NCBI RefSeq assembly: GCF_017114985.1
Contig: NZ_JABXKP010000026.1
Span: forward strand, 1-64,000
Length of the DNA: 64,000 nucleotides
Reading direction: 5' to 3'
From: Nostoc sp. JL33
Lineage (GTDB): Bacteria > Cyanobacteriota > Cyanobacteriia > Cyanobacteriales > Nostocaceae
Positions 7,553 to 63,359 of this stretch are shown piece by piece. Within the stretch, counting starts at the first letter, position 1; each line of letters opens with the position of its first letter. The notes beneath the pieces are model-generated. The model had not been told where the DNA came from. It ran no database searches and saw only the letters and a program-made list of their open reading frames with translations. The translations under genes and the position numbers were made by a program.

Positions 7553-8105
7553 TACCAGTTGTCCTCAAAAAGAGATTTACAAAGTATGCAAAAAAGAGAA
7601 AAGCCTGCACAATTTTCAGCGTTAAATTGTAATAGGTTCAATCTATCCGATCAAGAGTTATATAAACTATCTAGGATTGTCAGCGATCGGTCTAGCTGCC
7701 ATCAGCAAAATTAGCTCTAAAGTTTACATAACTATACTAATTCTAAGTAAATTTACGCTGAATATGTCCAGAGGATTTTCCCTTCTGTACATAAAGAATG
7801 ACAGACTTTTAGTCTTGTATCCTTAGCATTAGCTTACCCTGACTGAATCAAAATCTAACGCAGCCTGATGGCAAAATCTCAAGCAAGAGAAACTACACTC
7901 ATGCTAAATAGAGAACATTCAGCACCAGTAAATACTAAGTGGTAAAGAGCGCGTTGCCGACTGAATCGAAGGGGTAAAAAATTTTTGTCCCAAACTTGTT
8001 TGTCAGAGGCAAAATTAGGGAATGCTTAAAGATAGGAATTGATAACCTAGAAATTAGGACTTGTATCAATTACAGGATCGAGAAATTATTAAGGTAGCAG
8101 TGGCA
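7553..8105. other. Divergent intergenic region, no gene seen
   Basis: About 550 bp between the minus-strand aminotransferase and the plus-strand GAF protein. It must hold both promoters, but no confident operator, RNA or ORF was recognised. Confidence 0.6.
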
Positions 8106-9659
8106 ATGTTAGAGCCTGAAAACAAATTATTTGCCCTAAAGGATGGTTGGGATTCTCCTGAATCAAGAGAACAACAACGCCTCAAAGCTTTGTCAGATTT
8201 AGGTTTGCGGCAACCAGAAACGATTCCGGTTTTTGAAGAAGCCACGCAGACTGCTGCCCACTTTTTGGAAGCACCAATTTCCATATTGGGATTTGTGGAT
8301 CAAGAACGCCACTGGTTTAAGTCGGCGGTGGGTTTATCTAGGCTGGGACTAATGAATCATTTGGCACAAAGCCGCCAACTGTCACGCCGGGAATCCTTTT
8401 GTACTCAGGTAGTAGAGAGTTTTCAAGTATTTGTAATTAATGATACACATAAGCTTACAGATCCAGTCCTTGCTAGCAGCAAGTTGGTGCAGGATTATGG
8501 TATTCGTGCTTACTTAGGAGCGCCACTGATTGATGCTGAGGGACATTGTTTGGGTGCATTGGCGGTGATGGATTTGATGCCGCGCAATTTTACACCGCGA
8601 GACATTGAATTTTTACAAATCATCGCCCGTTGGAGCATGAGTGAATTTGAGCGTAACCGACTCCTGCAAGGGAAACTCAAATCAAGGACTCCGGCGATCG
8701 CTCCTCTATTTTCACTCAATGAGGAACGTAACGCTGAGATTAAAATCACCCCACCCACTAAAGATAGCCAATCTGTTTCTACCAAGCAAGTGAAACTGGA
8801 ACTTTTGGGTCAGCTAACTCAGGAGTTACGTACACCCTTAACATCTGTACTCGGTATGGCTAGTGTTTTAGGACGTGAGATTTATGGCCCTTTGACGAGT
8901 AAGCAGAGAGAATATTTGGAAATTATCCAACACAGTGGTCGGTACTTACTTTCCCTAGTAAACGAAATTACCGAACTAGGAGCTACGGATGAAAACTCCA
9001 CTGTGCTGAATGTAGTTCCTGTGGATATCGAAATGCTGTGTCAACAAGCTATCAATACCCTAGAAGAAGTGGCTAATCGCCGCGAGCAAGATATTCGCCT
9101 CTCTATAGAACCGGGACGCAATCGCATTTTACCTTTAGATAAAGAGAAGGTGCGGCAAATGCTCTATCACCTGGTTTTCAGTGTGATTCAACTTGCGGCT
9201 ACAGGTAGCATTGTTCGCATTCATGTCTCTTACAAGGAAGATACGCTCAACATTACTATTTGGGTTTCCCATCCTTGGCTAGGGGACGGCATAACTGAGG
9301 TTGATCCGTATTTCCGTCTTAATTCTTTATCGCTGCTGGAGCTAACAGGTGAGGTAGCAACTTACAATAGTCATGCAGAAAGCCAAGAGCAAGCAGATAT
9401 TTCATCAGTAACAGTGAACAATTCAAAAAATTTGAGTGATTCCCACTCCAAATCCTTTGCTGCTAGTTCAGGTATAAATTTAGCTAAATCACATGGAAGT
9501 CTTTCTCGTGAAAGCTTGGGTCTATTACTAAGTTGTCAACTGGCAGAGTTGCATAGTGGACAAATTTTGATTCAAGGTTCGCCAGAATCAGGATATCGTT
9601 ATGTGCTTTCTTTGCCACTGCAACTGACGACTCCCTCACAACTAATTAGCGATGTTTGA
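8106..9659 (+). CDS. GAF-domain protein with degenerate histidine-kinase module (probable pseudokinase)
   Basis: A GAF domain (about residues 40-190; contains GAPLIDAEGHCLGALAV) is followed by a DHp-like region and a HATPase-like region. In the DHp the motif reads LTQELRTPLTSVLG, so the phospho-acceptor His of the usual SHELRTPL motif is replaced by Gln. The ATPase part also lacks a clear N-box (QMLYHLVFSVIQLA) and a DxGxG motif, and a Ser-rich insert (about 425-470) interrupts it. It is therefore probably a signalling scaffold or regulator rather than an active kinase. The ATG at 8106 (517 aa) is preferred to the in-frame TTG at 8061. The ligand of the GAF domain is unknown; the family is recurrent in cyanobacteria as far as I recall. 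Confidence 0.8.
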   Translation: MLEPENKLFALKDGWDSPESREQQRLKALSDLGLRQPETIPVFEEATQTAAHFLEAPISILGFVDQERHWFKSAVGLSRLGLMNHLAQSRQLSRRESFCTQVVESFQVFVINDTHKLTDPVLASSKLVQDYGIRAYLGAPLIDAEGHCLGALAVMDLMPRNFTPRDIEFLQIIARWSMSEFERNRLLQGKLKSRTPAIAPLFSLNEERNAEIKITPPTKDSQSVSTKQVKLELLGQLTQELRTPLTSVLGMASVLGREIYGPLTSKQREYLEIIQHSGRYLLSLVNEITELGATDENSTVLNVVPVDIEMLCQQAINTLEEVANRREQDIRLSIEPGRNRILPLDKEKVRQMLYHLVFSVIQLAATGSIVRIHVSYKEDTLNITIWVSHPWLGDGITEVDPYFRLNSLSLLELTGEVATYNSHAESQEQADISSVTVNNSKNLSDSHSKSFAASSGINLAKSHGSLSRESLGLLLSCQLAELHSGQILIQGSPESGYRYVLSLPLQLTTPSQLISDV

Positions 9660-9942
9660 TCACAATATATAAAGAACAGGTGACAGTTGATAGTCTATGG
9701 TAACTGGGAAGTAGGGATTGGGAAAAAGGTAATTTCCATCTATTTGTTGTGTACTAAGTACTTGAAGGGCTATCTTAACTTAGTATTGGCTAAAGTGGTT
9801 TCGGATTAAAGTAGTGGCTGATGGCTAGGAATAAGGGTGGATTACAGGATGTGCAATCTCTGTTATTACCTTTTTATAGCCATAGGCATTATGATCAATT
9901 CCAAGTTCTGCGTCGGCAGACTAATTGATCGCAATGTTTTTT

Positions 9943-11361
9943 ATGAATTTAGTCTGGCAACGATTTACTTTATCATCTTTACCGCTCAAAGAATATCTTG
10001 CTACCAGTTACGTACATCGTTCTCTGGTCGGACTGTTAAGTTCTTGGCGGCAAACCAGCATCTTACTCCAGTGGGGAGATGCGATCGCAGCTGCTTTACT
10101 CAGCTTAATATATGCCCTTGCACCTTTTGCTTCGAGTACATTGGTGGGCTTGTTGCTGGTGGCTTGTGTGGGATTTTGGCTGTTGTTGACTTTATCTGAT
10201 CAAGTCACACCAGCAAATGTCTCGTCAGTCACTCCCATTCACCTGCTGGTATTGCTTTACTGGGGAATTGCCGCAGTCGCAACAGCATTATCACCAGTGA
10301 AAAAGGCGGCGCTTAACGACTTGGGAACGTTGACCTTGTATTTGCTACTATTTGCCCTTTGTGCCAGGGTATTGAGGTCGCCTCGCCTCCGGTCTTGGAT
10401 TATCATCCTTTACCTGCACGTATCGTTAATTGTCAGTGTATATGGATTGCGGCAATGGTTTTTTGGAGCCACAGCACTGGCAACTTGGGTTGATCCAGAA
10501 TCTCCGATGTCTAAGACTACAAGAGTCTACAGTTATTTAGGTAATCCCAACTTATTGGCTGGATACCTTTTACCAGCAGTAATTTTTAGCCTAGTGGCAA
10601 TTTTTGCATGGCAAAGCTGGCCTAAAAAAGCCTTAGCATTAACGATGTTGATTGTCAATACTTCTTGTCTGATCCTAACTTTTAGCCGTGGCGGTTGGAT
10701 TGGACTAGTGGTGGCATTTTTGGCTGTGATGGCCTTGCTAGTTTATTGGAAAAGCGTGGAAATGCCTCGTTTTTGGCGTACTTGGTCGCTACCGATTGTC
10801 TTGGGAGGTTTGATTGGAGTATTACTGCTAGCAGTGATATTTGTAGAGCCAGTCCGCCTGCGGGTGTTGAGCATTTTTGCTAACCGTCAAGATAGCAGTA
10901 ATAATTTTCGCCGAAATGTGTGGGATGCTGTTTTTCAGATGATTCGCGATCGCCCGATTTTCGGCATTGGCCCCGGCCACGGCTCTTTTAATAAAGTTTA
11001 TCCCCTCTACCAACACCCTCGTTACACTGCTTTGAGTGCCTATTCAATTTTATTTGAAGTGACTGTAGAAACTGGCTTTGTTGGTTTAGCCTGCTTTCTC
11101 TGGCTGATAATTGTCACATTTAATACGGCATTTTTGCAAGTGCGACGATTGCGAAAATTGAGAAGTGTAGAGGGATTTTGGTTAATTGGAGCGATCGCTA
11201 TTTTGTTGGGTATGCTAGCTCACGGCACCGTAGATACTGTTTGGTATCGTCCTGAAGTCAATACCCTCTGGTGGCTTATCGTTGCCTTAATTGCCAGCTA
11301 CTGGACACCTTTAGCTCAAAACCAGACAAATTCATCTAACTCAGAACCAGCACTCAACTAA
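9943..11361 (+). CDS. ictB: IctB-family membrane protein (O-antigen ligase-like)
   Basis: A polytopic membrane protein of about 472 residues with 10-12 hydrophobic segments and the Wzy_C/O-antigen-ligase loop RPIFGIGPGHGSFNKVYPLY. It matches the cyanobacterial IctB family, once proposed as a bicarbonate transporter; the O-antigen-ligase similarity suggests a glycan ligase or polymerase role instead. The sequence alone cannot decide between these. The ATG at 9943 (MNLVWQRF) is preferred over TTG 9925 and ATG 9934. It is followed by a strong hairpin shared with the convergent WGxxGxxG gene. Confidence 0.85.
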   Translation: MNLVWQRFTLSSLPLKEYLATSYVHRSLVGLLSSWRQTSILLQWGDAIAAALLSLIYALAPFASSTLVGLLLVACVGFWLLLTLSDQVTPANVSSVTPIHLLVLLYWGIAAVATALSPVKKAALNDLGTLTLYLLLFALCARVLRSPRLRSWIIILYLHVSLIVSVYGLRQWFFGATALATWVDPESPMSKTTRVYSYLGNPNLLAGYLLPAVIFSLVAIFAWQSWPKKALALTMLIVNTSCLILTFSRGGWIGLVVAFLAVMALLVYWKSVEMPRFWRTWSLPIVLGGLIGVLLLAVIFVEPVRLRVLSIFANRQDSSNNFRRNVWDAVFQMIRDRPIFGIGPGHGSFNKVYPLYQHPRYTALSAYSILFEVTVETGFVGLACFLWLIIVTFNTAFLQVRRLRKLRSVEGFWLIGAIAILLGMLAHGTVDTVWYRPEVNTLWWLIVALIASYWTPLAQNQTNSSNSEPALN

Positions 11362-52299: not shown

Positions 52300-53499
52300 A
52301 TGTCCCACGGGGAAGTTATTTCAAATAATCTAGTAAATCAATTTCAAAGTTGTACTCAGCTGCAATATAATGGCAAATTAAATATTAAGAGTTCAAAGGG
52401 GAGCCAATGGACTTTTTACTATCGGCTGGGACGTATAGTTTGGGCAACGGGGGGAACTCATCCCTTCCGACGCTGGCGTAGACATTTAGCTCAAAATTGT
52501 CCCCAGATTGATGTTGATAAGTTGCAGTTGTCTTTGCAAGACCTATCAATCGATTACTGGGATTATCGCCTTTTAGAAATATTTTATAAAAAACAGAAAA
52601 TCCAACGCGAACAGATTAACTCTATTGTCGATAACACGATAGCAGAACTATTATTTGACGTAGCTATGCAAGGAAATTTTGCTTCTATAAGTTGCAGTCG
52701 CAGTCAAGAAGTTATCTTAGAAGCACCAATGAGTTTCACGAGCGCAGAAATGTCTGTAAAGCATATGCAAGACTCGTGGAAAATTTGGTCAGAAGCTGGT
52801 TTAGCAAATTTTTCTCCTGACTTAGCACCATTTCTGCGGCGACCAGAAATACTCCAGCAGATGGTAAGTCCATCTGTCTACAAAAACTTTGCCAATTTCA
52901 TCAACGGCAAATTCACTCTGCGAGATTTAGCCGTGAAAATGAAGCAGAGTGTACTGCCACTCACGCGTTCATTGGTTCCCTATATCCTTAAAGGAATCAT
53001 CGAATTGGTGGAAGTACCTGACTTGCCCTTAGGAGTTACTGAAGTCAACAATAACTCTACCATCACACAATTAAAGAAGCGGACTGCTCCACTAGTGGCT
53101 TGCGTCGATGATAGCCCTCAGGTATGTAAAATGCTAGAGGATATTATCACTTCCAATGGATTAAGGTTTGTCAAGATTCAAGATGCTGTACAAGCTCTAC
53201 CAACCCTCATTCAAGATAAACCAGACCTGATTTTCTTGGATTTGATTATGCCAGTTGCCAGTGGTTACGAAATTTGCACTCAGTTGCGACGAATATCTGC
53301 CTTTAGCAACACACCAATCATTATATTAACAGGCAATGATGGTTTTTTAGATAGAGTTCGTGCCAAGGTTGTCGGTTCTACAGATTTTCTCACTAAACCC
53401 GTAGTCGCTGATAAGGTGATGGCTATAATACGTAAATATTTAGCTACATCGAGTGTATCCATCGACAAAAATAAATCTAATTTAGAGGTTTGGAATTAG
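52300..53499 (+). CDS. pixG: PatA/PixG-type response regulator (DUF4388-like + REC)
   Basis: A 399-residue protein: an N-terminal PatA-type domain (LQYNGKLNIKSSKGSQWTFY, LGRIVWATGGTHPFRRWRRH), a helical middle and a C-terminal REC domain (CVDDSPQVCKMLEDI, phospho-acceptor Asp in LIFLDLIMP, Lys in FLTKPV). Such PatA-like regulators head the pixGHIJL/ptx phototaxis operons, and that is the order seen here. A GGAAGAAACT ribosome site precedes the ATG. Likely output protein acting on pilus motility (family knowledge). A 500-bp gap with a long hairpin separates it from the CheY gene. Confidence 0.86.
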   Translation: MSHGEVISNNLVNQFQSCTQLQYNGKLNIKSSKGSQWTFYYRLGRIVWATGGTHPFRRWRRHLAQNCPQIDVDKLQLSLQDLSIDYWDYRLLEIFYKKQKIQREQINSIVDNTIAELLFDVAMQGNFASISCSRSQEVILEAPMSFTSAEMSVKHMQDSWKIWSEAGLANFSPDLAPFLRRPEILQQMVSPSVYKNFANFINGKFTLRDLAVKMKQSVLPLTRSLVPYILKGIIELVEVPDLPLGVTEVNNNSTITQLKKRTAPLVACVDDSPQVCKMLEDIITSNGLRFVKIQDAVQALPTLIQDKPDLIFLDLIMPVASGYEICTQLRRISAFSNTPIIILTGNDGFLDRVRAKVVGSTDFLTKPVVADKVMAIIRKYLATSSVSIDKNKSNLEVWN

Positions 53500-53997: not shown

Positions 53998-54360
53998 ATG
54001 AATACTGTTTTAGTTGTTGAAGATGGCTTAACCGATATGGAAATAATCAGCCGTTACTTACAACAGGCAGGTTATTCTGTGATTAGCGCCACAAGCAGTG
54101 AAGAAGCTCAAGACAAAATAGATAAAAAGAAGCCAGACCTAATATTACTCGACGTAATTTTACCAGGAAAAAGTGGCTTTGAAATTTGCCGAGAATTGAA
54201 AAGCAATCCCAACACTAGTAAAATACCTGTGGTTTTTTGCTCTACCAAAAATACTGATGTAGATAAAATTTGGGGTAATATGTTGGGCGCTGATGGTTAT
54301 CTCTCAAAACCGATTGAACGTGAGGAATTACTATTAATTTTGAACCGATTGATTCAATAA
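53998..54360 (+). CDS. pixH: CheY-like response regulator
   Basis: A 120-residue single REC domain. Acidic pair in VVEDG, Asp52 in LILLDVILP, Thr/Ser site in VVFCSTKN and Lys104 in YLSKPIE. PixH-type CheY proteins take phosphate from the PixL/CheA kinase and modulate pilus-driven phototaxis. Followed by cheW after 107 bp. Confidence 0.9.
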   Translation: MNTVLVVEDGLTDMEIISRYLQQAGYSVISATSSEEAQDKIDKKKPDLILLDVILPGKSGFEICRELKSNPNTSKIPVVFCSTKNTDVDKIWGNMLGADGYLSKPIEREELLLILNRLIQ

Positions 54361-54467: not shown

Positions 54468-54941
54468 TTGGAAACCAAGGAAAAGTTTTTAAGTTTTAAT
54501 TTAGGAATAAGGGATACAGCCGTAATTTCGTTACAACACATCACAGAAGTTTTGCAAGTATCATTACCAGAAATATGTGGCGTTCCTGAGATGCCGAGTA
54601 GCGTCTTGGGTATTTATAACTGGCGCGGTGAGATGCTTTGGTTGGTCGATTTAGAGGCAATGTTAGGTTATCCTCCAATTTCGCAAGGCTCAAATTTACT
54701 TTCAATAATGATGGGGATTGTTCTGGAAAACAAGGGTAAGTATTTGGGACTATTGGTGCGACAGCTTATCGATATTGAATGGCTGGATACTAAGCAAATG
54801 AAACCCGCAATTACTGAATTATTTTATCCTAAAATATCACCTTTTTTACAGGGATACTTTATTAATGATTCCGAGGAGATGATTTTTAATTTGGATGCGA
54901 TAACGATTATCCAAGCTCCCATGTGGGGGGTTCATAATTGA
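54468..54941 (+). CDS. pixI: CheW-like coupling protein
   Basis: A 157-residue CheW domain protein (FLSFNLGIRDTAVISLQHIT, VPEMPSSVLGIYNWRGEMLW, RQLIDIEWLD). It links the receptor to the CheA-type kinase. The start is TTG at 54468 with AGAAAGGA about 9 nt upstream; there is no in-frame ATG before the domain. Third gene of the phototaxis operon. Confidence 0.88.
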   Translation: METKEKFLSFNLGIRDTAVISLQHITEVLQVSLPEICGVPEMPSSVLGIYNWRGEMLWLVDLEAMLGYPPISQGSNLLSIMMGIVLENKGKYLGLLVRQLIDIEWLDTKQMKPAITELFYPKISPFLQGYFINDSEEMIFNLDAITIIQAPMWGVHN

Positions 54942-55067: not shown

Positions 55068-58000
55068 ATGACGTTTTTGTATAAAAATAGCCAAGAAAAT
55101 GAGAATATAATCTCGGAATTAGAAAATATTAATGGTGACGCGAATATAGCGAATATTGCTAGTAATGAAATATCTTTATTAAATGCGATCGCTGAGGAAT
55201 TTAAAACTTGGCGGCGACAGTTGCAAGACATCGCAACTCATATGCGCCAAGCGTCAGACCTTGATGGATTACTCAAAATCACTGTAGCGCAAATTAGAGA
55301 AAAGATTGGCTGCGATCGCGCTTTGATTTATCAGTTTACTTCCCTAGAATCAGGTAATGTTTTAGCAGAATCTAGAACACTAGGTTGGACACCGACTTTA
55401 GGCGAAAATATTCCCGTAATTATTTTTGGCTTATATAGCAATAAAGACTATATAGAACCTGTAGTTATTGACGATATCAATCAGATTCAACTTACCCCTT
55501 ATCAAAAGCAACTGCTAGATAAATTTCAAATTAAAGCTAGTTTGAGTTTACCGATTGTAGTAGAAGGTAAAGTATGGGGTTTACTAGCAGTAAATAATTG
55601 CCAGACAACGCGGCAGTGGCAAGAGGTAGAAATTAGTCTACTATCTCAAATTACAACAGAATTCACCTACAAATTACAGAGCTTTGAATTTCACAAAGAA
55701 CTACAAAATCAAACACAGGCAAAAAAATCAGTAGCTAAAGTCATCGATAAAATTCTCCACGTATCAAATATTGATAAGATTTTCCAAACAACTACTCAAG
55801 AAGTACGTCAATTACTAAAATGCGATCGCGTAGGTGTTTATCGCTTCAAACCTGACTGGAGTGGCGAGTTTATCGCAGAGACAGTGGGTAATGGTTGGAT
55901 AAAAATGGTTGGCCCTGATTTTAAAATGGTCTGGGAAGATAGCCACTTACAAGAGACTCAAGGAGGACGTTATGCCAAGGGTGAAACCTTTGTGGTCAAG
56001 GACATTTATCAAATGGGTCATGCTCAATGTCACATTGATATTTTAGAGCAGTTTGAAATGAAGGCTTACATCATTGCGCCGATATTCAGTGGAGAGAAAT
56101 TATGGGGCTTGCTGGGAGCTTATCAAAATTCTGGGCCGCGTGATTGGCAATCTTGGGAAGAAAGCTTTTTAACTCAGATTGGCTTGCAATTTGGTGTGGC
56201 CATATCACAAAGAGAATATATCGAGGAAGTGCAGAGGAAATCTGATCAACTAGCTCAGATACTTGAACAAGAGAAAGCTTTAACGAAGATAGTCGATCGC
56301 ATCCGACAAACCTTAGATGTAGATAGCGTCTTCAAAATAACCACTCAAGAAGTACGGCAATTACTAAAATGCGATCGCGTTGTAGTTTTTCGCTTCAATC
56401 CCGACTGGAGTGGTGAATTTGTCGCTGAGTCAGTGGTTAGTAATTCTATCAAACTGGTAGGCCCTGATATTAAAACCGTCTGGGCAGATACCTACATACA
56501 AGAAAATAAAGGTGGTCGATATGTCCAAGGTGAAAGCTTTATCGCTAATGACATCCATGAGGTAGGTCATTCTCCCTGCCATGTTGAGATGCTAGAGCAG
56601 TTGGAAATTAGAGCCTATGTGATTGTACCTGTATTTTCTGGGGAAAAATTGTGGGGATTATTAGCAATTTATCAAAACTTTGTATCTCGTGATTGGCAAC
56701 CTTGGGAAGTCAGCTTTTTGATTCAAATTGGCTCTCAATTTGGTGTAGCTGTATCACAGGCAGAATATCTTGAACAAGTGCGAATTAGAAATACACAACT
56801 AGCTCAGTTAGCAGATCAAGAGAAAGCTTTCACTAAGATAGTCAACCGCATCCGCCAATCTGTAGATGTAGATAGTGTCTTCAGAACAACCACTCATGAA
56901 GTGCGTCAATCACTCCGATGCGATCGCGTCGCAGTCTATCGCTTTAACCCTGACTGGGGTGGTGAATTTGTCTCTGAGTCTGTGGGTAATAATTGGACAA
57001 AACTGGTAGGCCCTGATCTTAGAACCTTTTTAGACGATACCTATTTGCAAGAAACTCAGGGAGGTAGGTATGTCAAAGGTGAAAACTTTATCGTTAATGA
57101 CATCTATAAAGCAGGGCTTGCTCCCTGCCACATTGAGATTTTAGAGCAGTTTGAAGCCAAAGCTTACATAATTGTTCCTATATTCTTCGGGGAAAAATTG
57201 TGGGGCTTGTTGGCAGCGTATCAAAATTCTAGCACCCGTGAATGGCAAAGCTGGGAACTTAACTTTTTGGTTCAGACTAGCTTACAATTTAGCCTAGCTA
57301 AATCACAGATAGACTATTTGGAATTAGTTCGGGTAAAATCTGAGAAACTAGCTCAGTTAGCGGAACAAGAGAAAGCTGTCACAAAGATCAGCAACCGCAT
57401 CCGACAATCTTTGAATGTAGAAGATATTTTCAAGATAACCACTCAAGAAGTGCGACAATTATTGCGATGCGATCGCGTCTCTGTCTATCGCTTTAATCCT
57501 GACTGGAGTGGCGAATTTGTGTCTGAGTCAGTAGCTCATGGTTGGGTAAGACTAGTAGGCCCCGATGTCAGAACTGTCTGGGAAGATACCCACTTACAAG
57601 AAACTCAGGGAGGTCGATATGCCCAAGGTGAAAACTTTGTTGTAAATGACATCTATCAGATGGGTCATTTACCCTGCCATATTGAGATATTAGAACAGTT
57701 TGAAGTCAAAGCTTATGTAGTTGTTCCTGTATTTGCTGGGGAACAATTGTGGGGTTTGCTGGCAGCTTATCAAAATTCGGGAACTCGTGATTGGGACGAA
57801 TCGCAAGTCAGTTTGTTAGCACGCATTGGCAGTCAGTTAGGGCTGACATTACAACAGACGGAATATTTGCAACAAGTACAAGCGCAGTCAGCAAAATTAG
57901 CAGACGCAGCAGCACGGGAAAAGGCAGCCAAGGAATTATTACAACAACGGTCTATTCAACTCCTAATAGCCCTTAGACCCGCTCTCAATGGCGACTTAAC

Positions 58001-58925
58001 GGTACGCGCACCAATTACAGAAGACGAGCTAGGCACGATCGCCGATGCTTACAATAATACCCTGCAAGCACTGCGGCAAATCGTTATTCAGGTACAGGGG
58101 GCTGCTCAACAAGTTGCCCAAACTTCTAGCAATAGTGACGCTTCACTAGCGGGATTGACTAATCTGGCGCAACAACAGTCTGAGGAAATTACCGCAGCTT
58201 TAGGCGAAATTCAACAGATGGTGGACTCTACTCAAGCTGTAGTGGCAAATGCAGAGTTAGTGCAACTAGCAGTGCAACAAGCCAATCAAACTGTAGAGTC
58301 TGGCGATACCGCCATGAACCTGACTGTCAAAGCAATCCAAGGAATTCGTGAAACTGTTGCTCAAACTAGCAAAAAGATTAAACGTCTCAGCGAATCCTCA
58401 CAAAAAATCTCCAAAGTGGTGAATTTGATTGGTAATTTTGCCACACAGACAAACGTACTGGCTTTGAATGCAGCGATTGAAGCCACTCGTGCAGGTGAAT
58501 ATGGCAAAGGCTTTGCAGTTGTAGCTGATGAAGTCCGTTCTTTATCTCGCCAGTCAGCAGCAGCCAGCATCGAAATTGAAAAATTAGTCCAGGAGATTCA
58601 AGCAGAAACCGGAGAAGTTGCAGTAGCGATGGAAACTGGCATTCAACAGGTGGTAGAAGGCACAAATCTTGTCAATGACACTCGCCAAAACTTAAATGCG
58701 ATCGTTTCTGCAACTGCCGAAATTAGTCAGCTAATCGAGCGAATTACCGCAGCAACTCAAAAACAAATGACGCAATCTGTGACAGTAACTAAATCAATGC
58801 AAGATGTAGCAGAAATTGCCAATAAAACTTTTGCTGAATCTCAAGAAATTGCTACTGTGTTCCAAGATTTATCAGGGATGGCGCAAGAGTTATTAACAAC
58901 TGCTGGTAAGTTTAAAGTGAACTAA
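55068..58925 (+). CDS. pixJ: Cyanobacteriochrome phototaxis receptor (methyl-accepting chemotaxis protein, PixJ type)
   Basis: A 1285-residue light receptor. GAF1 (about 65-200) lacks a bilin Cys (TPYQ at the site). GAF2-GAF5 each have the CBCR Cys-His: Cys321, 504, 687 and 870, spaced exactly 183 residues, with LEQFE downstream. The red/green-type Trp and Asp (W-x-D then QETQGGRY) are at 289/291, 472/474 and 838/840, but GAF4 has Leu655 in place of Trp (TFLDDTYLQ). After a HAMP-like linker (about 965-1010) comes the MCP signalling domain with the hairpin tip ATQTNVLALNAAIEATRAGE. No membrane segment is seen, so it is probably cytosolic or peripheral. Residue numbers of GAF2 agree with those I recall for AnPixJ. 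GAGGG precedes the ATG. Confidence 0.93.
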   Translation: MTFLYKNSQENENIISELENINGDANIANIASNEISLLNAIAEEFKTWRRQLQDIATHMRQASDLDGLLKITVAQIREKIGCDRALIYQFTSLESGNVLAESRTLGWTPTLGENIPVIIFGLYSNKDYIEPVVIDDINQIQLTPYQKQLLDKFQIKASLSLPIVVEGKVWGLLAVNNCQTTRQWQEVEISLLSQITTEFTYKLQSFEFHKELQNQTQAKKSVAKVIDKILHVSNIDKIFQTTTQEVRQLLKCDRVGVYRFKPDWSGEFIAETVGNGWIKMVGPDFKMVWEDSHLQETQGGRYAKGETFVVKDIYQMGHAQCHIDILEQFEMKAYIIAPIFSGEKLWGLLGAYQNSGPRDWQSWEESFLTQIGLQFGVAISQREYIEEVQRKSDQLAQILEQEKALTKIVDRIRQTLDVDSVFKITTQEVRQLLKCDRVVVFRFNPDWSGEFVAESVVSNSIKLVGPDIKTVWADTYIQENKGGRYVQGESFIANDIHEVGHSPCHVEMLEQLEIRAYVIVPVFSGEKLWGLLAIYQNFVSRDWQPWEVSFLIQIGSQFGVAVSQAEYLEQVRIRNTQLAQLADQEKAFTKIVNRIRQSVDVDSVFRTTTHEVRQSLRCDRVAVYRFNPDWGGEFVSESVGNNWTKLVGPDLRTFLDDTYLQETQGGRYVKGENFIVNDIYKAGLAPCHIEILEQFEAKAYIIVPIFFGEKLWGLLAAYQNSSTREWQSWELNFLVQTSLQFSLAKSQIDYLELVRVKSEKLAQLAEQEKAVTKISNRIRQSLNVEDIFKITTQEVRQLLRCDRVSVYRFNPDWSGEFVSESVAHGWVRLVGPDVRTVWEDTHLQETQGGRYAQGENFVVNDIYQMGHLPCHIEILEQFEVKAYVVVPVFAGEQLWGLLAAYQNSGTRDWDESQVSLLARIGSQLGLTLQQTEYLQQVQAQSAKLADAAAREKAAKELLQQRSIQLLIALRPALNGDLTVRAPITEDELGTIADAYNNTLQALRQIVIQVQGAAQQVAQTSSNSDASLAGLTNLAQQQSEEITAALGEIQQMVDSTQAVVANAELVQLAVQQANQTVESGDTAMNLTVKAIQGIRETVAQTSKKIKRLSESSQKISKVVNLIGNFATQTNVLALNAAIEATRAGEYGKGFAVVADEVRSLSRQSAAASIEIEKLVQEIQAETGEVAVAMETGIQQVVEGTNLVNDTRQNLNAIVSATAEISQLIERITAATQKQMTQSVTVTKSMQDVAEIANKTFAESQEIATVFQDLSGMAQELLTTAGKFKVN

Positions 58926-58927
58926 GT

Positions 58928-58958
58928 AGGGAATAGGGAGTGGGGAGTGGGGAGTGGG
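58928..58958. repeat. GGGGAGT heptanucleotide repeat, left of four-helix gene
   Basis: About four 7-nt units directly after the pixJ stop; the last unit provides GGAG before the next ATG. Confidence 0.7.
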
Positions 58959-58960
58959 AA

Positions 58961-59350
58961 ATGACAGCTTCTGAAATTCGATCTTATCAAGATTTAAAAG
59001 TTTGGCAAGAAGGCATGAATTTAGCTGAAGCTTGCTATCAGCTAACGATTGCATTTCCGAAAGAGGAACTTTACGGAATGACTTCACAGATTCGTCGGGC
59101 AGCTGCATCAGTTCCAGCAAATATAGCTGAAGGCTATGCACGAGAGTATCGCCCGGAATACATAAGATTTCTCCGAATAGCGCAAGGCTCTCTTAAAGAG
59201 CTAGAAACTCACTTGTTACTATCAGCTAGAGCCAAAGTTGGACTTACAGATACTCAACTAGTCACTCCAATTTTGAGGCAATGTGAATCTGTAGGAAGAC
59301 TACTGCGTGCTTTGATTCGTTCTTTAGAGAATAAGGGGAGTAGGGAGTAG
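58961..59350 (+). CDS. Four-helix bundle protein (23S rRNA intervening-sequence protein family)
   Basis: A 129-residue helical protein: YQDLKVWQEGMNLAEACYQL, MTSQIRRAAASVPANIAEGY and IRFLRIAQGSLKELETHLLL mark the IVP/four-helix bundle family. These proteins are found both in 23S rRNA intervening sequences and free in genomes, often next to surface-sugar or mobile loci; the function is unknown. It is wedged between pixJ and pixL and is flanked on both sides by GGGGAGT-type repeats, which suggests it was inserted. The ATG at 58961 is used instead of the upstream GTG/ATG inside repeats. Confidence 0.88.
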   Translation: MTASEIRSYQDLKVWQEGMNLAEACYQLTIAFPKEELYGMTSQIRRAAASVPANIAEGYAREYRPEYIRFLRIAQGSLKELETHLLLSARAKVGLTDTQLVTPILRQCESVGRLLRALIRSLENKGSRE

Positions 59351-59591: not shown

Positions 59592-62500
59592 ATGATCACC
59601 GATAACGAAATTCGCGAACAAGGATACATCTACTTTCTGGCGGAAGCTCCAGAATTACTCCAAATTATTGAACAAGAACTATTTAGCTTATCGGAAGGTT
59701 ATAGCATTGCCAAAGTTCACAACTTAATGCGGGCTACTCATACACTTAAAGGTGGAGCCGCTAATGTTGGGCTAGAAGTAATTAAGATGATAGCCCATTT
59801 TTTAGAAGATGTATTTAAGGCTCTATATAATCCAAAAGTGGTAATTGATGTCGAGTTACAAACACTTTTATTACAAGGTTATGAATGTCTGAGCATAGCA
59901 TTAAATACTGAGCTAATAGGCAGTACTATTAATGATGACGAACTGCTCCATCGAGCAACTTCAGTGTTTGCACAGTTGCAAGAAAAACTGGGTGATGCCT
60001 TTGGTGCTGAGTCTCATATTCCTAGTTCTGAAGAATTGGGATTTGATATTGTGCAGTCTGTTTTTGAAGTGGGAGTAGAACAACGTCTAAACAGTATTGC
60101 TGACGCTGTTAACAATCCACCAAATAGTGACGACTTTATCGAGTTCTTACAGTCCCAAGCTGAAGTGTTTTTCGGCTTGGCAGAATCTCTAAATTTACCT
60201 GGATTGGGAGAAATTGCCCAAACAATTCTGTCAGCACTACAAGCAAATCCTACCCAGGTGCAGCAAATTGCAGAAATTGCCCTTGCAGATTTGCAACAAG
60301 CACAACAATTAGTATTAGCAGGCGATCGCACATCTGGTGGAAAAACTTCTCCCGCTTTGCGAAAACTCACGATAGTGGCAAATAACCAGTTATCTGGAGA
60401 ATCGGAAAATGATTCATCTACTGACCAATTTCTCATCAATGAAAAACAATTTTACCAGTTTATCACTACATCGGATAACAATAAAAACCAAGCCGTCAAC
60501 GCAACAACTGCCAAGTTTTATTTAAAAGTAATTCGCTACATTTTTGGCTGGTTTAATCATCAGATGGAAGTACCAGAGCCAGAACTCAGCTTGACTTTAC
60601 TAGTTCCCACATTAGAAAGAATAAGTCTACTTAATTATATCGAAAACTGGCTGAAAAAGTTTATTGATTTTGTTCAAGATGAAGACGATAGTCAAAGTCT
60701 TTGTATTTATCGACGTGGGATCATCTTAATTATTCTATTTGCAGTTGCAAAATTTGAATATTCTATTAACGCATCTGACAGCTACCTCTTAGTAATTAAA
60801 ATATTAGAAAAGCAAATTCATACATTAGCACAAAAATATAAAAATTATCCTCCTGTTACTGGCAAAGAGAAAAATTGGCTTGATAGTCCTAAGTTACAAA
60901 CATTATTAGTTTTTAAAGAAATATCTAAATCCGTATCTCCTGAAGCAACTGATAACTTCCTAGAAGCAATATGGGGAGAAGAAGCTAGCCAAAACCTTAC
61001 TGCTGAAGTCGTGACGATCCAGAGTGATGATTCTCCAGAAAACCTTGATTCATTAACTGTCAGTGAGCCGGTAGTTTCTGAAACAGCTATTGAAGTCATG
61101 CCTGATTTAGCTACACAAATAAACCAAGAAATAGAAGATAAATCACAGTATGTTCAAACTAAAAATTTGCGCCAACCTTCATTTATTCGGGTAGATACAG
61201 AGAGACTGCAACACCTCAATTATCTAGCAGGAGAATTACTGATTTACCAAAAACGGCGTAGTTTGCAAGATGAACAAGTCAAAGAAATAATTGAGCAATT
61301 AGTACAGCAACTCACTAGACACCAAACAAGTTTAAATGAATTACGTGATTTACCATTACAAATACAAAACATTACTTCACAACAAACGCAAGATTTTGCA
61401 GTTAATTTTGACTCTTTAGAAATGGATGTATATACAGAATTCCATATGACATTGCATGAAGCAATAGAAGAGACACTGCAACTACAAGAAACCACAGAGT
61501 CTCTTGACTTACTCGTGATGCAAGCTGCTCAAATTAGTGACAAACAAGAGAATTTAACTCTTAATATTATAGATAGCTTAGTAGAAGCACGGATGTCGCC
61601 TTTGGGCAATATCTTGAATCGCTTCCCTCACATGGTAAATAAGTTAGGGAATGTTTATGCCAAACTTGTAGAATTGAAACTTACTGGTACTGCGGTGCTA
61701 GTGGATAAAGCGATCGCAGAAAAGCTCTACGATCCCTTATTACACTTAGTGCGTAATGCTTTTGACCACGGGATTGAAACTCCGCAAGTTCGCCGAGAGC
61801 TTGGTAAACCAGAACAAGGTTTAATCGAAATCTGCGCCTATCATCAGGGTAGCCAAACTGTTATCGAAGTTCGGGATGATGGCCAGGGATTGAATTTAGA
61901 CAGAATTCGCAGAAAAGCTGTTGAATTCCATCCCATACAAACTGAAGAAAAAACTACAAGCAGAGCTTCTAATCTGGCTGAACCTGAACTCTTAGATTTG
62001 ATATTTTCGCCTGGATTTTCCACCGCTAATAAAGTAAGCGAAATTTCTGGACGCGGTATGGGTTTAGATATTGTGCGTACTCAGATGCAGGCGCTCAATG
62101 GCTCAATTTCAGTTGAATCCTTACCCAACCAAGGAACAATATTCATACTCAAAATCCCTTTTTCTATGACTACAGAAAAATTAATGCTAGTTCAAGCCAA
62201 AGGTGTTGTTTATGCCCTTCTTTTGGATAGTATCGAAAAAATATTGATTCCCTCTGAACAACAGATTAAAGAAATTGAAGGCAAAAAAGTCTTGCATTGG
62301 AACACAGACGATAATGATACTATGGTCAGCCTACGTCAACTTTCAAAGTTGATTGGTTATAATGGTTCATTCTTTAATAGTGCTACTGCATACAACACAT
62401 CAAATACTCACGAGCCAAGCATAACGAAAAATCCGGTGCTTTTGCTCCGACGAAATCAGGGAATGGTTGCTTTAGAAGTTGACCAAATAATTGGTGAACA

Positions 62501-63359
62501 AGAACTAGTAATTAGACCTTTAGGAAATGCGATCGCATCACCTAAATATATTTATGGTTGTAGTAGTTTAGCCAATGGTAATCTCATCTTAGTCATTGAT
62601 GCTTCATTGCTGGTAAAATCTGGCGAGATCCAACAAACAACACTTGATATCAGGGCGCTACCAATAGCTTCTTCGTCAAATAAAAAAGCCTTGCCGATAT
62701 CAGGACATACTTTTTTATCTACACCATTACTTGCTGCATCTACTTCCACAACAACTATAGAAACCCAACCTATTTATTTGGAAGAACCAGATAATAAATC
62801 AACAAAAACTGCTTCTACTTCCATAGCAAATATAGAAACCCAACCCAGTTATTCTCAAGAGCCAGATAATAAATCAACAAATGCTTCTACTTCCACAGCA
62901 AATATAGAAACCCAACCCAGTTATTCTCAAGAGCCAGATAATAAATTACCAAAAGTTATTTTAGTAGTAGATGACGCAATTAGTCTGAGGCAAACTCTCT
63001 CTCTGACTCTCCAAAAATCTGGCTATCAAGTAATACAAGCTCAAAATGGTATTGAAGCTCTAGAAAAGTTGCACTTACATCCAGAAATACAAGTTGTCGT
63101 CTCCGATTTAGAGATGCCACGAATGAATGGTTTTGAGTTGTTGAGCAATTTTCGTCAATACCCCAATTTAGCAAAAATACCTGTAGTAATTCTCACTTCT
63201 CGCAGCGCTGAAAAACATCGTCAGCTTGCCCACGAATTGGGTGCAAAGGCTTACTTGACCAAGCCTTATTTAGAGCATGAGTTTCTCTCTACAATTAAGG
63301 GTTTAATGAACAGTAATACAGATGATGTAAACCATTTACTCCTGGTGGCAAATCATTAA
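59592..63359 (+). CDS. pixL: Hybrid CheA-type histidine kinase with REC domain
   Basis: A 1255-residue kinase. Domains: Hpt with phospho-acceptor His50 in RATHTLKGGAANVG; a long middle region (about 110-515); dimerisation/HATPase with LHLVRNAFDHGIETP (N box), EVRDDGQGLN and SGRGMGLDIVRTQM; a CheW-like domain (about 870-1010); a Ser/Thr linker with three 24-25 residue repeats (about 1048-1120); and a C-terminal REC with Asp1172 in VVVSDLEMPRMNGF and Lys in YLTKPY. It should phosphorylate its own REC and PixH/PixG under control of PixJ. No CheB or CheR is encoded in the cluster. The ATG at 59592 immediately follows a repeat array. Confidence 0.93.
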   Translation: MITDNEIREQGYIYFLAEAPELLQIIEQELFSLSEGYSIAKVHNLMRATHTLKGGAANVGLEVIKMIAHFLEDVFKALYNPKVVIDVELQTLLLQGYECLSIALNTELIGSTINDDELLHRATSVFAQLQEKLGDAFGAESHIPSSEELGFDIVQSVFEVGVEQRLNSIADAVNNPPNSDDFIEFLQSQAEVFFGLAESLNLPGLGEIAQTILSALQANPTQVQQIAEIALADLQQAQQLVLAGDRTSGGKTSPALRKLTIVANNQLSGESENDSSTDQFLINEKQFYQFITTSDNNKNQAVNATTAKFYLKVIRYIFGWFNHQMEVPEPELSLTLLVPTLERISLLNYIENWLKKFIDFVQDEDDSQSLCIYRRGIILIILFAVAKFEYSINASDSYLLVIKILEKQIHTLAQKYKNYPPVTGKEKNWLDSPKLQTLLVFKEISKSVSPEATDNFLEAIWGEEASQNLTAEVVTIQSDDSPENLDSLTVSEPVVSETAIEVMPDLATQINQEIEDKSQYVQTKNLRQPSFIRVDTERLQHLNYLAGELLIYQKRRSLQDEQVKEIIEQLVQQLTRHQTSLNELRDLPLQIQNITSQQTQDFAVNFDSLEMDVYTEFHMTLHEAIEETLQLQETTESLDLLVMQAAQISDKQENLTLNIIDSLVEARMSPLGNILNRFPHMVNKLGNVYAKLVELKLTGTAVLVDKAIAEKLYDPLLHLVRNAFDHGIETPQVRRELGKPEQGLIEICAYHQGSQTVIEVRDDGQGLNLDRIRRKAVEFHPIQTEEKTTSRASNLAEPELLDLIFSPGFSTANKVSEISGRGMGLDIVRTQMQALNGSISVESLPNQGTIFILKIPFSMTTEKLMLVQAKGVVYALLLDSIEKILIPSEQQIKEIEGKKVLHWNTDDNDTMVSLRQLSKLIGYNGSFFNSATAYNTSNTHEPSITKNPVLLLRRNQGMVALEVDQIIGEQELVIRPLGNAIASPKYIYGCSSLANGNLILVIDASLLVKSGEIQQTTLDIRALPIASSSNKKALPISGHTFLSTPLLAASTSTTTIETQPIYLEEPDNKSTKTASTSIANIETQPSYSQEPDNKSTNASTSTANIETQPSYSQEPDNKLPKVILVVDDAISLRQTLSLTLQKSGYQVIQAQNGIEALEKLHLHPEIQVVVSDLEMPRMNGFELLSNFRQYPNLAKIPVVILTSRSAEKHRQLAHELGAKAYLTKPYLEHEFLSTIKGLMNSNTDDVNHLLLVANH
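62736..62953 (+). repeat. 72-75 bp coding repeats in pixL linker
   Basis: Three in-frame copies encoding ASTS...IETQPSYSQEPDNKST-type units beginning near 62736, 62811 and 62883; the last two are almost identical at the DNA level, a sign of recent duplication. Confidence 0.85.

Follow-up and report, generated by a model that had tools for sequence, protein, structure and literature searches.

The 64,000-nucleotide stretch analysed here (the window; Nostoc sp. JL33, contig NZ_JABXKP010000026.1, positions 1 to 64,000) encodes, at 55068..58925 on the forward strand, a receptor that belongs to the known PixJ family and whose point of interest is a middle photosensory module that lacks a pocket tryptophan and recurs in relatives. 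We consider it rather probable that this protein is a soluble PixJ-type receptor in which a bilin-less first GAF domain (GAF1) is followed by four modules of the red/green cyanobacteriochrome (CBCR) lineage and a methyl-accepting chemotaxis protein (MCP) signalling domain, with the colours distributed among the modules as mapped below. Sequence comparison establishes the anatomy, the family, the classes of modules, their conservation and the spacing; solubility, bilin binding, colours, signalling and phototaxis are inferred from these.

Domain anatomy and pocket residues

Pfam searches with the 1,285-aa open reading frame gave GAF matches over five stretches and a single MCP signalling domain. 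The features of the receptor are as follows, the four CBCR modules being delimited by our own cut into units of 183 residues.

55068..58925, + strand: PixJ receptor, a single open frame of 1,285 aa with GAF1, four CBCR GAFs and MCP
55257..55658, + strand: GAF1, without a bilin Cys-His pair (Pfam GAF match and cysteine positions)
55713..56261, + strand: GAF2 module, aa 216-398, with Cys321, Trp289 and the helix Phe
56262..56810, + strand: GAF3 module, aa 399-581, with Cys504, Trp472, a 'WADTY' motif and Leu512 for the helix Phe
56811..57359, + strand: GAF4 module, aa 582-764, with Cys687, Leu655 for the lid Trp and the motif 'LDDTY ... GLAPCH'
57360..57908, + strand: GAF5 module, aa 765-947, with Cys870, Trp838 and the helix Phe
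58323..58817, + strand: MCP signalling domain, aa 1086-1250 (Pfam PF00015, E 1.5e-40)

This layout, with a bilin-less GAF1, tandem CBCR GAFs and an MCP domain, is that of PixJ of the AnPixJ/NpR6012 type. The initial annotation had placed bilin Cys-His pairs at residues 321, 504, 687 and 870, exactly 183 residues apart, and we confirmed both points and found no other Cys-His pair in the protein. It was also right that three modules keep the pocket Trp (residues 289, 472 and 838; hereafter the lid Trp) and that GAF4 has Phe654-Leu655 at this place. Its statement that GAF1 has no Cys stands in the sense that a Cys-His pair is lacking, and fails as worded, since Cys82 and Cys178 lie within the first 215 residues. 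Over any 19 consecutive residues the mean hydropathy does not exceed 1.48, and the receptor therefore looks soluble; the four highest stretches fall inside GAF domains.

The nearest solved structures are 6BHN (E 4e-104), which was identified as NpR6012g4 through its partner entry 6BHO, named NpR6012g4, and 3W2Z (E 2e-88), which is AnPixJg2. GAF5 is 89% identical to the former and GAF2 71% identical to the latter. Equivalents of the bilin Cys, His322, Asp291, Arg301, Tyr302, Tyr352 and the beta-2 Phe (numbered as in GAF2) are kept in all four CBCR modules. W289 together with Asp, Arg, His and Tyr has been described as the crucial set of residues of the AnPixJg2 pocket (PMC8156171), and the last four of these are present in 4/4 modules. 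All four modules are predicted to bind phycocyanobilin. Set against the canonical red/green (XRG) pocket, GAF2 and GAF5 keep all residues, including the lid Trp and the helix Phe; GAF3 differs at the helix Phe, replaced by Leu512, and GAF4 at the lid Trp, replaced by Leu655, the others being kept in both.

A recurring class of Trp-less middle modules

Relatives were taken from 30 loci (one of which, L057, is the window itself) and 60 stretches picked among the matches listed; at about 47-54% identity most of them were passed over, with L146 and L147 retained. Redundancy was removed on the basis of the last 700 residues of each protein, which left 98. First GAFs were left out of the module alignments, and module matches of fewer than 100 profile positions were dropped. 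Residue counts rest on 310 modules, and they and the comparison of pocket residues cover all arrays except L146, L147, L045 and L065.

The initial annotation singled out GAF4 as the one atypical module. Among the 78 three-CBCR relatives (counted with L045 left out), the middle module carries Leu, Val or Ile for the lid Trp in 63 (Leu in 56, Val in 4, Ile in 3) and Trp in the other 15; the lid Trp is present in the first module of 78/78 and in the last of 76/78. The idea of a lone mutated module is rejected by these 63 Trp-less middle modules, and the alignments place GAF4 in a recurring class of middle modules with Leu, Val or Ile at the lid. Phe654, which had been noted beside Leu655, is not a feature of this class, occurring among the relatives compared only in the window and in its near relative L035.

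The class differs from the Trp-lid modules at more than the lid. In the 76 Leu-lid modules, the bilin Cys and the Asp are kept in 76/76, His322 in 67 (Tyr in the other 9), position 290 is Asp in 62 and Asn in 14, position 293 is Tyr in 62 and position 318 is Leu in 72. The 213 Trp-lid modules have Glu at 290 in 188, His at 293 in 178 and His at 318 in 197, with the helix Phe in 153. The 76 include a second Trp-less class that ends long arrays. In five loci (L007, L008, L023, L026 and L037), the last module is Trp-less, with an 'LNDPC ... CY' motif and Cys at the 293 position.

We built a quick tree from 119 modules of 34 chosen arrays, with the lid and Cys columns removed. One of its groups, of nine rows (support 93), unites GAF4, its equivalents in the two near relatives and Trp-less middle modules from six arrays with three CBCRs; GAF3 falls into another group, of 'WADTY' modules, with eight rows (support 96). 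Many other inner branches were weak, with Trp and Trp-less middle modules mixed further out. When the 20 'DDT/NDT' Trp-less modules were held together as one clade, on 92 of the 119 rows (L146, L061-L065 and L027_4 left out), this arrangement was not rejected (p-AU 0.515, the approximately unbiased test), and the held tree scored 1.6 log units better. This outcome is compatible with a single lineage of these modules without proving it. We tentatively propose that the PixJ proteins of Nostocaceae hold, in the middle of their arrays, a natural Trp-less CBCR class forming a distinct spectral class (orange-leaning/green), which, next to GAF3 with its presumably altered photoproduct, would give the window receptor three spectral types.

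Several observations weigh against the reading given here of a coherent class. The free trees need at least seven lid changes on the 119 modules and eight on the 310, and therefore more than one origin, or gene conversion, must have been involved. Coupling between pocket positions comes down to only three independent pairs on supported branches, so that co-variation corrected for the tree cannot reach significance. Strict coupling is also contradicted by three relatives in which Leu at 318 occurs together with Trp, Glu and His.

Two side observations concern single arrays. In the PixJ of L027 (match 8001-11306), the last CBCR carries the Trp-less motif, and the core of this module is 91-98% identical in DNA to that of its own middle module; in L072, the corresponding comparison of last and middle module gives 73-89%, and the C-terminal ends of the two L027 modules are 44-64% identical. 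This pattern fits a gene conversion that brought the Trp-less pocket into the last module. The first CBCR of L033 has Ser in place of the bilin Cys and may therefore have lost covalent bilin binding.

Predicted colours of the modules and alternative readings

Under the reading that we favour, GAF2 and GAF5 would be canonical red/green sensors. For GAF4, the closest experiments are those on the lid Trp of slr1393g3, in which W496L and the corresponding His and Tyr variants had dark states blue-shifted by 26-30 nm; in these W496 variants the short-wavelength form was the majority, the photoproduct shifted by at most 5 nm and conversion was incomplete, and similar effects of Trp loss are stated for AnPixJg2 and NpR6012g4 (PMC11733413). 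GAF4 would thus be expected to carry phycocyanobilin, to have its dark state shifted to the blue (orange-leaning), to form an almost normal green photoproduct and to convert less completely. The change of photoproduct predicted for GAF4 by the initial annotation is not supported, given that the slr1393g3 Trp-to-Leu change moved the dark state and that GAF4 keeps both Phe residues; by analogy, that prediction was probably the wrong way round. The idea that one receptor could integrate several light qualities remains plausible; what would change is the account of which module alters which state.

The module that may have an altered photoproduct is GAF3, which had passed as ordinary and has Leu512 for the helix Phe. 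The beta-2 Phe and the helix Phe have been described as a steric blockade in photoproduct tuning (PMC6121604). GAF4 keeps the two; GAF3 keeps only the beta-2 Phe. The Spirulina domain SPI1085g3, with the same combination of beta-2 Phe and helix Leu as GAF3, forms a 590 nm photoproduct, and another three domains that lack the helix Phe are cited in support (PMC6121604); NpR6012g4 variants at the two positions also gave red-shifted photoproducts (PMC5240096). With its lid Trp kept and Leu512 in place of the helix Phe, GAF3 would be expected to absorb red light in the dark state and to form an orange, thus red-shifted, photoproduct. Taken together, these analogies make it likely that GAF2 and GAF5 are red/green, GAF3 red/orange and GAF4 orange-leaning/green.

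Other data count against this map. In two insert-Cys CBCRs, changing only the helix residue was nearly without consequence apart from a slight shift of the dark state, the helix position mattering jointly with the beta-2 Phe (PMC5240096). Helix Leu occurs in 4/15 Trp-Ala-type modules, the window's included, and the helix Phe is not universal among Trp-lid modules (153/213, as given above), so that this position is variable. In NpR6012g4, His in place of the lid Trp failed to restore chromophore binding (PMC11733413), and GAF4 could therefore bind poorly. Only the Trp was exchanged in each slr1393g3 variant; the natural Trp-less modules are different at 290, 293 and 318 as well and may have compensated for the loss.

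This last point leads to the reading in which all four modules are ordinary red/green sensors, Asp656, Tyr659 and Leu684 compensating for the missing Trp, Leu512 being of minor weight and the array adding sensitivity. The red/green module slr1393g3 itself carries Tyr at position 293, and Phe rather than His at 318 (5DFX alignment), which indicates that such changes are tolerated, and the almost silent helix changes of the insert-Cys CBCRs (PMC5240096) point the same way. We nevertheless regard this reading as rather unlikely, considering that His, Tyr and Leu each blue-shifted the dark state of slr1393g3, which already has Tyr at 293 (PMC11733413), and that SPI1085g3, with its helix Leu, has the 590 nm photoproduct (PMC6121604). 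GAF4 might alternatively not photoswitch at all, serving as a structural spacer or as a non-switching holder of bilin. Such a role would agree with the orange-absorbing subpopulation of NpR6012g4, which grows on Trp loss and is photochemically inert, and with the incomplete conversion of Trp variants (PMC11733413). The retention of Cys and Asp in every Leu-lid module and the ratio of nonsynonymous to synonymous substitutions of GAF4 against five counterparts (dN/dS 0.18-0.31) speak against it, and we hold it to be quite improbable.

Tuning of GAF3 and GAF4 to biliverdin instead of phycocyanobilin was suggested by their Tyr at the 293 position, H293Y being among the four changes of the BV4 variant of AnPixJg2 (PMC8156171). 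Neither module has the two BV4 changes described as most crucial, those at 308 and 336, where Phe and Ile are kept, and slr1393g3 also has Tyr at 293; biliverdin tuning is accordingly very improbable. A far-red CBCR was likewise considered for GAF4 and is unlikely, as 6XHG, which we take to be a far-red sensor, retains the Trp within a shorter loop and carries an insert in the alignment.

Should the predicted colours hold, the lid-Trp experiment has been carried out naturally, along with other changes, in dozens of species, and both the working of a CBCR without its lid Trp and the retention of such a module in mid-array become testable beside well-studied modules; if true, this would be a distinct spectral class in the type of receptor from which AnPixJg2 and NpR6012g4 are known. 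Among the papers listed by our literature searches, none mentioned NpR6012g2, NpR6012g3, AnPixJg3 or Trp-lid orange XRG modules, and those listed for gene conversion and tandem copies dealt with other subjects; this is not a ground for calling these modules unreported.

The 183-residue register and the age of the duplications

In the DNA, a core of 300 nt occurs in four copies with an exact spacing of 549 nt, copies 2-4 being 75-78% identical to the first. In 97 other proteins (L040, with a run of N, was left out; L146 and L147 are in this count, although not counted as PixJ orthologues), neighbouring CBCRs are exactly 183 residues apart in 205/224 pairs, and 183 is the sole value in 86/97. 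The register is therefore not special to the window gene; the 183-residue spacing is a family trait. These proteins hold three CBCR modules in 79 cases, four in 9, five in 6 and six in 3, and from the spacing and these counts together it follows that arrays mostly gain or lose whole modules.

The modules of the window receptor are 58-64% identical to each other, with a synonymous divergence (dS) of 0.66-1.44, and 77-98% identical to the counterparts compared in seven other genomes (dS 0.09-0.56). Since dS within the protein exceeds dS to these counterparts, the duplications are old, and the register must then have been upheld by constraint. The "clean tandem duplication" of the initial annotation thus holds only as a description of old history. 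A recent event was rejected, as the window modules group with their counterparts elsewhere and dS is larger inside the protein. The spacing would be maintained by constraint on the linkers combined with the gain and loss of whole modules, and equal helical linkers may keep an equal rotation between modules. A spacing kept while modules come and go would offer a natural test of the number of modules that a chemoreceptor is able to read through fixed linkers.

The window and the two relatives with 95% identity combine both middle types, Trp-less and WADTY, in one array; in the three-CBCR relatives, the middle module is Trp-less in most and of the WADTY type in fewer. This distribution fits either unequal crossing over between array types or loss of one type from an ancestor that had both.

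The pix gene cluster and the putative signalling route

The receptor gene lies in a cluster on one strand, in the order DUF4388-receiver, CheY, CheW, receptor and CheA:

52300..53499, + strand: PixG-like response regulator, DUF4388 + receiver (Pfam PF14332, PF00072)
53998..54360, + strand: PixH-like CheY, single receiver (Pfam PF00072, E 1.6e-25)
54468..54941, + strand: PixI-like CheW coupling protein (Pfam PF01584, E 7.6e-26)
58940..59350, + strand: 23S rRNA-intervening-sequence family protein, between pixJ and pixL (Pfam PF05635)
59592..63359, + strand: PixL-like CheA with Hpt, ATPase, CheW and receiver domains (Pfam)

This is the pixG-H-I-J-L order found with PixJ of the AnPixJ/NpR6012 type, and it supports a PixJ-type receptor. 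In 41 named loci, a PixG match of at least 300 aa was found upstream of pixJ in 38, a PixH match in 40, a PixI match in 39 and a PixL match downstream of pixJ in 40, two of them partial. The gaps fall in L019, L036 and L039, where the contig ends at that side, and in L022, which looks rearranged.

Signals from the MCP tip would reach the CheA PixL by way of the CheW PixI; PixG and PixH would regulate the output, which probably goes to type IV pili. A mutant showed PtxD of N. punctiforme, which switches between six colours, to be needed for positive phototaxis (PMC5812497), and the idea of a multi-colour receptor is therefore not new. As a query for such a receptor we used L146, a seven-GAF MCP protein from a related genome that is PtxD by architecture only. 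L146 had no counterpart in the window's genome, an absence limited to L146-like proteins, and its best match was the window protein itself. As a control, the query found itself in G124, and its best match was PixJ in G152, G138 and G105. The two five-GAF relatives come from the first two of these, and the module with 99.4% identity to NpR6012g4 comes from G105. Either, then, G105 is a strain other than the PtxD-bearing N. punctiforme, or L146 is not PtxD.

Four MCP matches in the window's genome lay above the cut-off; among the GAF matches listed, only the window protein and a protein on contig 91 were represented, and the latter's 970-residue frame has neither Cys-His nor Cys-Tyr. The window protein thus appears to be the only bilin-type MCP in its genome, which is rated 99.49% complete, and this makes phototaxis a fair guess rather than a result.

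The 23S rRNA-intervening-sequence gene stands beside pixJ in full length in 4/41 named loci (L006, L039, L042 and L046), with short matches in L012 and L022, so that it looks mobile or optional. Its product is probably not part of the receptor.

Comparison with known systems

AnPixJ (All1069, Anabaena sp. PCC 7120) likewise carries red/green CBCR GAFs in a PixJ receptor, and the Cys321/Trp289 numbering of GAF2 is shared. L135 and L129, whose GAF2 is 96-97% identical to AnPixJg2, have three CBCRs with an Ile lid in the middle one; the window receptor has one CBCR module more. A search with AnPixJg2 in 217 genomes at the very strict cut-off of E <= 1e-115 gave no match, and an empty result at this cut-off shows nothing; AnPixJ's own GAF3 was thus not found, and its lid residue is inferred. 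NpR6012 of Nostoc punctiforme is compared through L072, which has a module 99.4% identical to NpR6012g4, the 183 spacing and a Leu-lid middle module; this array has three CBCRs, whereas the window receptor adds a WADTY module before the Leu-lid one.

Two point comparisons concern single modules. Slr1393g3 W496L has Leu at the lid of a red/green-lineage CBCR, as GAF4 does, but is a laboratory point mutant and not a recurring natural class (PMC11733413). SPI1085g3 of Spirulina resembles GAF3 in keeping the beta-2 Phe with Leu for the helix Phe, and belongs to a different receptor (PMC6121604).

PtxD (NpF2164) also sets many CBCR GAFs on one MCP and brings several colours into one phototaxis receptor; it differs in having seven GAFs, two of them with a second bilin-linked Cys, against the five GAFs of the window protein (PMC5812497). 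Synechocystis PixJ1/TaxD1 shares the content of its tax1 cluster, namely receiver proteins, CheW, CheA and an MCP photoreceptor, with the locus described here; PixJ1 differs in its two GAFs, its blue/green photocycle and its two transmembrane segments (PMC5812497), the window protein looking soluble.

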